Assembly: GCF_900129985.1 (NCBI RefSeq)
Contig: NZ_FQXN01000005.1
Location: forward strand, 1-64,000
DNA: 64,000 bases
DNA from: Thermosipho atlanticus DSM 15807
Lineage (GTDB): Bacteria > Thermotogota > Thermotogae > Thermotogales > Fervidobacteriaceae
Direction: 5' to 3'
Numbering within the stretch: position 1 is the stretch's first letter; each line of letters begins with the position of its first letter. A program made the translations under genes and the position numbers. Below are positions 54,416-55,967 of the stretch, piece after piece. The notes beneath the pieces are model-generated. The model had not been told where the DNA came from. It made no database searches and saw only the letters and a list, made by a program, of their open reading frames with translations.

Positions 54416-54952
54416 TTAAGCCTCCTTTAAACTCTTTTCTAGTTCAAAAAGTAAGTCTTTCAAAATTTTTAATTTTGATGGACTATCTAACTTTCCAAAA
54501 TGCTCTTTTATGATCTTAGAATCTATTTCATAACAATTTTCATCCCTACATCTTATGATTTTAAATTCCACTTCCTGGTTCATTAAAAGAGAAAAAAAAA
54601 CAGAAGGTAAATCCCCAATTGGTTGACAATCAATATGCTTTTTGCAAAACTTAGCAAGAACTTTCGTTCCTGCACCTAATTTGGTTTCAAGTTTTACATA
54701 ACCTCCTGTCATTTCAGCTGCTTGTTTTAAAAATGGCAATCCCAAACCTACTTTTCTAATTTTTTTTGACCTAGTTGTATAAAACGGGTCAAAGACTTTA
54801 TCAACATTTTTAATCCCCGGCCCATTATCTTCTACTTTAAATATAAAATATTCTTTCGTTTCTCGAATATCTATAACTACTTTTTTGGCCCCAGCTTTAA
54901 TGGAATTCTCTGCTATATCTTGCACATGATCTGCTAACGTTAGTAATCCCAT
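54416..54952 (-). CDS. Freestanding HATPase (anti-sigma/kinase-like ATP-binding protein)
   Basis: Resembles only the ATP-binding domain of histidine kinases: N-box IAENSIKAGAKKV, G1 VEDNGPGI, F-box FDPFYTTRSKK and G2 VGLGLPFLKQ. There is no phosphorylated His helix and no membrane segment. The last 70 residues are a separate region with several cysteines and a helical end. 178 residues. Overlaps the PHP gene by 13 bases; with the two genes upstream it forms a trio often found near iron-only hydrogenase genes. Confidence 0.8.
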   Translation of the reverse strand: MGLLTLADHVQDIAENSIKAGAKKVVIDIRETKEYFIFKVEDNGPGIKNVDKVFDPFYTTRSKKIRKVGLGLPFLKQAAEMTGGYVKLETKLGAGTKVLAKFCKKHIDCQPIGDLPSVFFSLLMNQEVEFKIIRCRDENCYEIDSKIIKEHFGKLDSPSKLKILKDLLFELEKSLKEA

Positions 54953-55641
54953 ATAGTTTTCACCTTTCCATTTACCAATGCTATTAAAAATTCTTGTATA
55001 CTACTCACTGCATTTTCAATTATACTATATCTCACACCAATTTGATTAAGGGAATGTGCATCTGAAGAAGAAATAGGAATCAATCCATGATTACATGCAA
55101 TTTTGTATTCCTCTAAATTTGTAACCTCAGCAATCTTAATTTTAGAAGTATCGGGAAAGAGTCCAAGTTGATATAAAACACCAAACCTTCGACTTATATG
55201 TGCATAAACAGGGATTCCAGAATTTTCTATTATCAATTCTACAACTTTTTTTAGAGGTAAATCCGTAGGAAATCCAAGAGGGATGGTTTCAAGAGATGTA
55301 AATTCATCACGTTCATTTACCTTTAATTGATAACCTAACTTTTCCGGATCATAACTGATTTTTGGTAAGTGTTCCGCAATTACCTTCGATACCTTCAAAA
55401 GATTCTCAATTTTATTAAAATACCCCAAAATATGCACATCTTCAACCGACTGGATTTCTATTCCTGGAATAAGAAGTTTTGAATGTTTCTCAAAAACTTT
55501 GTAAAATGATAAAACATTTTCTCCAGAATTATGATCGCAAATTGCAGCAATTTTGGGAGAATATTTCACTACTTCATTTGGAACCATCGTTAAATCTGAA
55601 CACGGCGACAAACAACTGTGGATATGTAGATCACACCTCAT
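54940..55641 (-). CDS. PHP domain metal-dependent hydrolase
   Basis: PHP phosphoesterase-type fold. The N-terminal motif CDLHIHSCLSPCSD, CDHNSG, PGIEIQSVED, AHISRRFGV and SSSDAHSLNQIG supply the metal-binding His/Asp/Glu set. 233 residues. Overlaps the DRTGG gene by 4 bases and the HATPase gene by 13 bases. Substrate unknown. Confidence 0.85.
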   Translation of the reverse strand: MRCDLHIHSCLSPCSDLTMVPNEVVKYSPKIAAICDHNSGENVLSFYKVFEKHSKLLIPGIEIQSVEDVHILGYFNKIENLLKVSKVIAEHLPKISYDPEKLGYQLKVNERDEFTSLETIPLGFPTDLPLKKVVELIIENSGIPVYAHISRRFGVLYQLGLFPDTSKIKIAEVTNLEEYKIACNHGLIPISSSDAHSLNQIGVRYSIIENAVSSIQEFLIALVNGKVKTIWDY

Positions 55642-55967
55642 TTTAATCCTAATTCATATAACTTTCCTGAAATTGTATAAGCATTTTCATTACTTTTCAA
55701 AAGTGTTATTCCTTCATCTTTTGCTTTTTCCACTGTCTCCTGTGAGAAGTCCTTTCCTTCACACAATATTATTGCTCTTATTCCCACCATAGAAGCAACT
55801 GCAACAATATTTACATGACTTTGAACTGTAATCCAAATCGAATCACTTTTGGCATTCTTCATAACCATACTCAAAAGATCTCCTGTATATGCATGAGAAA
55901 TTTCATAATCGCTGTTCCATAAAACCTTTTTAACAGGTATCTGTTCAATAATTTTAGAAAGTTTCAT
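55638..55967 (-). CDS. Small DRTGG-domain protein
   Basis: 109 residues with the DRTGG-like fold: WNSDYEISHAYTGDLLSMVM and VAVASMVGIRAIILCEG. DRTGG domains are found in regulators and in phosphotransacetylase. ATG after AGGGGGGAG; the stop overlaps the PHP gene start (ATGA). Likely a small regulatory or ligand-binding part of the trio. Confidence 0.75.
   Translation of the reverse strand: MKLSKIIEQIPVKKVLWNSDYEISHAYTGDLLSMVMKNAKSDSIWITVQSHVNIVAVASMVGIRAIILCEGKDFSQETVEKAKDEGITLLKSNENAYTISGKLYELGLK

Follow-up and report, generated by a model that had tools for sequence, protein, structure and literature searches.

A DRTGG, PHP and ATPase gene trio of Thermosipho atlanticus is the larger fragment of a five-gene module linked to hydrogenase genes in other lineages

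Genes at the trio locus

The window, that is, the whole 64,000-nucleotide stretch analysed here from Thermosipho atlanticus DSM 15807 (contig NZ_FQXN01000005.1, positions 1 to 64,000), carries three overlapping genes on the minus strand. DRTGG1 (55638..55967) was found to encode a stand-alone DRTGG protein of 109 aa, PHP (54940..55641) a predicted metal-dependent phosphoesterase of 233 aa with a fold of the nucleotide/nucleic-acid type, and HATP (54416..54952) a free-standing GHKL ATPase of 178 aa; all three frames are open, with overlaps of 4 bp (DRTGG1/PHP) and 13 bp (PHP/HATP). In the Pfam search, HATP matched HATPase_c with 59.2 bits (cut-off 26.4), and PHP matched PHP_C with 28.0 bits (cut-off 21.3) and the PHP family PF02811 with 16.5 bits (cut-off 26.4). 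DRTGG1 reached 24.1 bits with the DRTGG family, slightly under the cut-off of 25.2, and its paralogue DRTGG2 lay above that cut-off with 26.1 bits. The first-pass annotation had read three overlapping frames for a DRTGG protein, a PHP hydrolase and a freestanding kinase-like ATPase here; the frames exist, and Pfam and the PHP fold support the domain assignments.

It had also placed the trio between bamA and ruvA with no hydrogenase neighbour, and this was borne out: bamA follows the end of HATP after 2 bp, ruvA precedes the start of DRTGG1 by 21 bp, and no hydrogenase gene was found in the neighbourhood of the trio in the window genome. All these genes belong to a same-strand run, tatD-ruvA-DRTGG1-PHP-HATP-bamA-alaX-like, in which no gap exceeds 21 bp; the run is therefore probably a single transcription unit, and the trio probably does not form an operon of its own.

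Predicted folds and conserved residues

When the PDB was searched with sequence alone, no relative of PHP was obtained, and for DRTGG1 only marginal matches to unrelated proteins appeared. It is the predicted fold that secures the PHP assignment, since the AF2 model (pLDDT 96.6) was nearest to the PHP domain of EndoQ with Z 21.1 (rmsd 2.5, 207 aligned); further matches were TM0559, RNase AM (Z 16.9) and the AMP-bound nucleoside phosphatase 2yb1 (Z 15.9). A role as protein-tyrosine phosphatase is less likely, the match to YwqE (3qy6) having a Z of 7.3 against 21.1 for EndoQ. Nine residues, H6, H8, D36, H37, E62, H70, H148, D194 and H196, were invariant in 21/21 PHP sequences, and we take them to be the canonical metal ligands. 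With the modelled fold and the metal ligands intact, PHP is a phosphoesterase of predicted activity. Cys14, near the HxH motif of the metal site, was likewise invariant in 21/21 homologues from several phyla, and a redox or iron-ligand role is possible for it.

The AF2 model of HATP (pLDDT 91.6) starts directly with the ATPase fold, and the alignment of 33 sequences revealed a conserved C-terminal extension. Its best match was MutL/PMS2 (Z 13.2, rmsd 3.4, 149 aligned, residues 1-167, VIA-align); all 50 VIA-align rows were MutL, PMS2, MLH1, TopoVI-B, GyrB or ParE, and MutL also headed the Foldseek list, closely followed by histidine kinases and BCKDK. The resemblance to the MutL/gyrase (GHL) ATPases is one of fold, whereas HATP, with only 178 aa, is without their DNA-binding or endonuclease part. 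The GHKL motifs are intact, and Asp12, four residues before the invariant Asn16, was conserved in 33/33 sequences; it presumably occupies the position of the catalytic Glu of GHL ATPases, where histidine kinases have Asn. No phosphoacceptor (DHp) domain was found among the Pfam matches of HATP, in which HATPase_c begins at residue 10 of 178, and a two-component histidine kinase was rejected on this ground. As to the kinase-like character given at first pass, the MutL/gyrase fold of the model may mean an ATPase rather than a kinase.

The Cys of a [VI]DC[QP] motif is invariant in 21 Thermotogota HATPs; as a general redox switch it was dropped, being replaced by Met, Arg, Ala or another residue in Clostridia and Synergistota. 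The DRTGG1 and DRTGG2 families have a D-[LM]-[LM]-S motif in common, the Asp and Ser being at least 90% conserved (60 and 38 sequences), and in DRTGG1 of the window genome it reads D-L-L-S, with Asp30 and Ser33.

A five-gene module in Thermotogota

Among 61 Thermotogota genomes (the window genome and 60 relatives), a clear HATP orthologue was present in 51, and PHP was found in exactly these 51, giving an agreement in presence and absence of 61/61 (51 with, 10 without). Such conservation of the ATPase and PHP indicates that the trio is not a chance arrangement. In the ten HATP-negative genomes the top HATP matches had E values no better than 1e-9, and PHP matches were missing or no better than 3e-5. 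These genomes belong to several families (six to f3, two to f7, one to f9 and one, 71% complete, to f2), and the spread suggests, on family membership rather than a tree, that HATP and PHP were lost jointly several times.

The ancestral order in many Thermotogota is thyX-DRTGG2-CBSHAT-DRTGG1-PHP-HATP-bamA. In that cluster, CBSHAT is a protein of 315 aa in which an RsbW-like ATPase domain comes after a CBS pair; that of the window genome (C7:27719-28642) scored 108.5 bits for CBS and 34.6 bits for HATPase_c_2 (cut-off 27.4) and matched SpoIIAB (1tid) over residues 200-300 with 1.1e-4. Of the 51 HATP-positive genomes, 49 have CBSHAT; the two in which it was not detected are 81% and 60% complete. 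A fragment of it was also detected in one of the ten HATP-negative genomes (71% complete). In the window genome the trio lies on contig C5, CBSHAT on C7, and DRTGG2 on C3 beside thyX and folD, so the trio represents three fifths of a scattered module. The unit had been annotated at first pass as self-contained, which did not hold, as DRTGG2 and the CBS-CBS-HATPase gene are parts of the same ancestral cluster. Composition and co-inheritance mark the trio as the larger part of a module with five genes, DRTGG2, CBSHAT, DRTGG1, PHP and HATP.

Gene order was mapped in a scan of GTDB genomes with 369 relatives, from which the best 80 loci were kept and profiles were run on stop-to-stop frames. The DRTGG1 and DRTGG2 profiles merged in this map, and the paralogue labels in it therefore rest on position. 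Loci L035-L074 partly duplicate L075-L154, and counts were therefore taken from named loci only; two loci with no phylum in the title (L078 and L082), both of which hold hydB, were left out of the tally. Among the named loci holding PHP (best 80 of 369 relatives), DRTGG lay directly upstream of PHP in 27/29 from Thermotogota and 31/33 from other phyla, and PHP lay directly upstream of HATP in 28/29 and 20/33, respectively.

The sole exception among the 29 Thermotogota loci is that of G053 (L056/L086), in which PHP is on the opposite strand, outside a DRTGG2-CBSHAT-DRTGG1-HATP run. A second, different manner of splitting the module was seen in the Thermotoga-type genus g7 (L062 and L193 of G029; L044, L066), where HATP is found by itself in different surroundings, and PHP, at a distant place, is near the CBS-ATPase gene. 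Anti-phage defence was set aside as a role for these genes: PADLOC gave no match for the trio or CBSHAT, and PHP scored far below cut-off with the NCBIfam models TrlF and Ppl.

Linkage to hydrogenase genes in other lineages

In loci of the Mesoaciditogaceae type, the five genes run into hydrogenase genes in the order DRTGG2-CBSHAT-DRTGG1-PHP-HATP-hydC-Fd-hydB, where Fd is a [2Fe-2S] protein, and hydA lies divergent nearby in some. The mapped loci include Caldiserica/Cryosericum, Clostridia, Bacteroidota, Synergistota, Sphaerochaeta, Kiritimatiellales and Longilinea, and hydB (or hydC with Fd) was present in 39 of the 47 named loci outside Thermotogota (profile map, best 80 of 369 relatives). 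In Clostridia, HATP is located inside hydC-HATP-Fd-hydB-hydA, with the genes for DRTGG2, an RsbW-like protein, an [FeFe]-like protein, DRTGG1 and PHP alongside or divergent. It is also embedded in the hyd operon in Synergistota and Sphaerochaeta, where loci were found with HATP and without PHP or DRTGG; the five genes are therefore separable. In three Parabacteroides loci that contain the module, hydB was absent over a range of 9 kb. At the genome level, hydB was found in 44 of the 45 HATP-carrying genomes behind the non-Thermotogota loci (E up to 1e-100), and in the one exception, the genome of L146, the profile map detected part of a hydB gene at the locus. Within Thermotogota, hydB was near 6 and bamA near 19 of the 31 named loci (same map, best 80 of 369), which makes proximity to bamA the usual arrangement in the phylum. 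The first-pass annotation had stated that such trios usually adjoin iron-only hydrogenase or related redox genes in Clostridia and Thermotogae; this applies outside Thermotogota, Clostridia included, but not to most Thermotogota.

The association was also counted in 196 Clostridia genomes drawn evenly from the class, with HK-like matches (G138 and the second match of G280) set aside. HATP occurred in 106 of them, in 105 together with hydB and in 1 without it; 58 had hydB without HATP and 32 had neither (Fisher p 9e-12, phylogeny ignored). At least 91 of the 107 Clostridia HATP copies have hydB within 2 kb, with a median gap of 444 bp among the matches listed. The hydB match to the query was closer in HATP-positive Clostridia (median exponent 275 vs 242), and HATP therefore marks a hydB subtype. 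On the other hand, hydB persists without HATP in 58 of the 163 hydB-positive Clostridia and in four Thermotogota (G023, G039, G043 and G044; HydB 916-927 bits), so the module is not required by all HydBC complexes.

This linkage bears on the reading that the module is a nucleotide-stress system (for instance one that senses AMP or Ap4A and hydrolyses pAp-like nucleotides), its association with hydrogenase genes being due only to a common anaerobic physiology. Such a system would accord with the EndoQ, RNase AM and nucleoside phosphatase folds nearest to PHP, with thyX adjoining DRTGG2 in many Thermotogota and with the ruvA-bamA setting of the trio in the window organism, but the median of 444 bp to hydB among the matches listed in Clostridia, the insertion of HATP inside the hyd operon and its tracking of a hydB subtype make it rather improbable. 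CBS-pyrophosphatases are also in its favour: according to an excerpt of PMC10742508, their CBS and DRTGG domains bind AMP, ADP, ATP or Ap4A, a regulatory pair for AMP/Ap4A binding. There, however, the CBS and DRTGG domains are inserts in one enzyme, whereas the module has separate proteins together with GHKL ATPases and PHP.

Exchange of the putative sensor at the RsbW-like component

Among the named loci (best 80 of 369 relatives), 25 RsbW-like proteins bear CBS domains, and an [FeFe]-like gene was adjacent in 0/25. CBS-less RsbW-like proteins numbered 24, with an [FeFe]-like gene directly adjacent in 22; the other two (L087 and L140) lie at contig ends, and with these set aside the count is 22/22. 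The neighbouring protein combines Fe_hyd_lg_C with two 4Fe-4S motifs and an FeS domain, and gave no PAS match. This composition fits the description of group D (M2e) in an excerpt of PMC8163306, and the protein is thus referred to as group-D-like. In Clostridia and Bacteroidota its gene separates the RsbW-like gene from DRTGG1; Kiritimatiellales (L132) and a contig titled Bacteroidetes (L154) also show the CBS form with no [FeFe]-like gene. At the RsbW-like component a group-D-like [FeFe] protein can take the place of the CBS domains, which is a new point. The module in Clostridia and Bacteroidota thereby has a likeness to the sensory [FeFe]-hydrogenases of groups C and D (M2e); the group-D-like protein is absent from the Thermotogota modules, the CBS pair being fused there to the RsbW-like protein.

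The components that resemble sensors, namely CBS, RsbW-like and group-D-like [FeFe], argue against the nearest rival of our preferred reading, as do the 58 of 163 hydB-positive Clostridia that do without HATP. According to this rival, HATP would be an ATP-driven assembly factor or chaperone of HydBC, acting as a MutL/Hsp90-like clamp, and the DRTGG, CBS and PHP proteins would deliver metal centres or cofactors and take no part in signalling. Most of the evidence is common to it and the best explanation. In its favour, HATP sits between hydC and Fd-hydB in the operons of Clostridia, Synergistota and Sphaerochaeta, its fold is that of MutL, TopoVI-B and GyrB (Z 11-13), and an Asp stands four residues before its conserved Asn where histidine kinases have Asn. 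HydD, HydP and HisK, moreover, are taken as maturation or regulation genes in an excerpt of PMC8880783. All in all, we consider the assembly factor somewhat unlikely.

Hydrogenase genes and partner switching in the window genome

The first-pass annotation had proposed a search for hydrogenase genes elsewhere in the genome, and two Fe_hyd_lg_C proteins were detected on another contig, C1. The first is HydA (C1:359743-361491), whose gene lies beside hydG and hydE (gene names read from sequence), and the second is a protein of 486 aa (C1:436139-437131; L036 8116-9833) with a thioredoxin-like [2Fe-2S] neighbour of 80 aa. A hydC-Fd-hydB-hydC2-hydB2 cluster is present at C1:112-117 kb, and its main HydB (C1:114346-116127) is 74% identical to the HATP-linked HydB of another genome (G046). 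The trio on C5 is physically unlinked to this hydC-Fd-hydB on C1; the module parts must therefore act in trans on their proposed target here. The HydA type of 650-700 aa, present in 36/61 genomes and in 36/36 cases in HATP-positive ones, was absent from the window genome, as was a hydS-SpoIIE-hydCBA operon like that of the Thermotoga-type genome G029.

Some details of these loci may be recorded. Around hydA (L035 4657-9492; C1 about 356.6-361.5 kb of the window genome, G000) the order is hydA, an 81-aa ACT-like gene, hydG, an 89-aa gene and hydE, and the 89-aa gene between hydG and hydE recurs in G010 (L206). Small proteins like the 80-aa [2Fe-2S] neighbour precede sensory hydrogenases elsewhere. 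In G029 (L203; C1 about 1.354-1.373 Mb), hydS and a gene for a SpoIIE-type phosphatase stand before hydB and hydA, with a Rex-like gene downstream and the module unlinked.

A search for SpoIIE-like phosphatase genes, which had also been proposed at first pass, returned none (PF07228, 0 matches in the window genome). SpoIIE was also absent from G003, and STAS (PF01740) had 0 matches in the window genome and in the three other genomes of the genus (G001-G003); each family was present in 55/61 genomes. In G058, the module lies beside hydrogenase genes, yet neither STAS nor SpoIIE was found there. These results concern classical SpoIIE-STAS-RsbW partner switching, by which the RsbW-like protein would be an anti-sigma factor and the module would control transcription of redox genes. 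The likeness is real in several respects: CBSHAT has HATPase_c_2 over the cut-off and the SpoIIAB 1tid match, a small partner protein comes before the RsbW-like ATPase, the module in Marinilabilia has a SpoIIE gene next to it on the upstream side of DRTGG2, and G029 has its hydS-SpoIIE-hydCBA operon. The module differs, however, in having DRTGG in the place of STAS and in adding PHP and a second GHKL ATPase. With STAS missing from 4/4 genomes of the genus, SpoIIE missing from the window genome, and G058 keeping the module at its hydrogenase genes without either, we regard this classical form as highly improbable for the module; in the window genome, with neither STAS nor SpoIIE, it cannot be the mechanism and was rejected.

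Discussion

Related ATPases of hydrogenase operons have appeared in print as "HisK", "histidine kinase" or "histidine kinase-like ATPase" without a function, as far as the excerpts of the sources go. Thus, HydD, HydP and HisK of A. mobile were assumed to be maturation or regulation genes (excerpt of PMC8880783), Cthe_0339 was annotated "histidine kinase" (excerpt of PMC3990059), and an ATPase flanks TamHydS (excerpt of PMC8163306). The accessory genes of HydABC/Bfu hydrogenases resemble the present case, judged from the same excerpts, in that the operon contains or adjoins a free-standing histidine-kinase-like ATPase; HATP is of the same kind by family and locus context, the named proteins being likened to it by description. 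From its letter, we guess that HydP of A. mobile is PHP. The excerpts of these three papers name neither DRTGG nor PHP; nor do they mention a set of five genes, the splitting of such a set or its survival at a distance from the operon. No description of a DRTGG-PHP-ATPase set was found in titles, abstracts and excerpts of the open-licence PMC literature. The passage retrieved for DRTGG in the D. vulgaris hydrogenase literature concerns lactate, and that joining the PHP domain with a bifurcating hydrogenase is a table of Rex sites.

We tentatively favour the reading that the five genes are a companion module of the HydBC-type (Bfu) electron-bifurcating NADH module and its [FeFe]-hydrogenase, with a nucleotide- or redox-gated role in regulation or assembly. 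How it could work can be sketched as follows. The CBS pair would sense adenylate charge (elsewhere, the group-D-like protein would sense H2 or redox state) and would thereby gate the RsbW-like kinase, which would phosphorylate a DRTGG protein, most likely at the Ser of D-[LM]-[LM]-S; DRTGG would thus replace STAS. PHP would be the reset enzyme, its substrate for hydrolysis being the phosphoprotein or, in keeping with its fold, a nucleotide bound by CBS/DRTGG. HATP would be an ATP-gated dimer of the MutL/gyrase type that binds HydB/HydC and, depending on the state of DRTGG, tunes their assembly or activity. In its boldest form, which we think unlikely, the module would be a phospho-relay free of STAS and SpoIIE, with DRTGG as the phosphorylated switch. 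A single RsbW-like kinase would accept exchangeable sensors, the CBS pair for adenylates or an H-cluster-type protein of group D for H2, and the output would be a MutL/gyrase-type ATPase acting directly on the flavin-based bifurcating HydBC module.

Signal transmission by group D sensory hydrogenases is described as an open question in an excerpt of PMC8163306, and the relay, if true, would explain how these PAS-less proteins pass on their signal. The module gives them a defined partner set, comprising an RsbW-like kinase, two DRTGG proteins, PHP and a GHL-type ATPase, in which the hydrogenase-like sensor is exchangeable for a nucleotide-binding CBS pair. Electron-bifurcating hydrogenases set electron disposal in fermenters, acetogens and gut bacteria, and their companion genes have so far been called maturation or regulation genes. 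T. atlanticus offers a natural minimal case, in which the module occurs without STAS, SpoIIE or linked hydrogenase genes.
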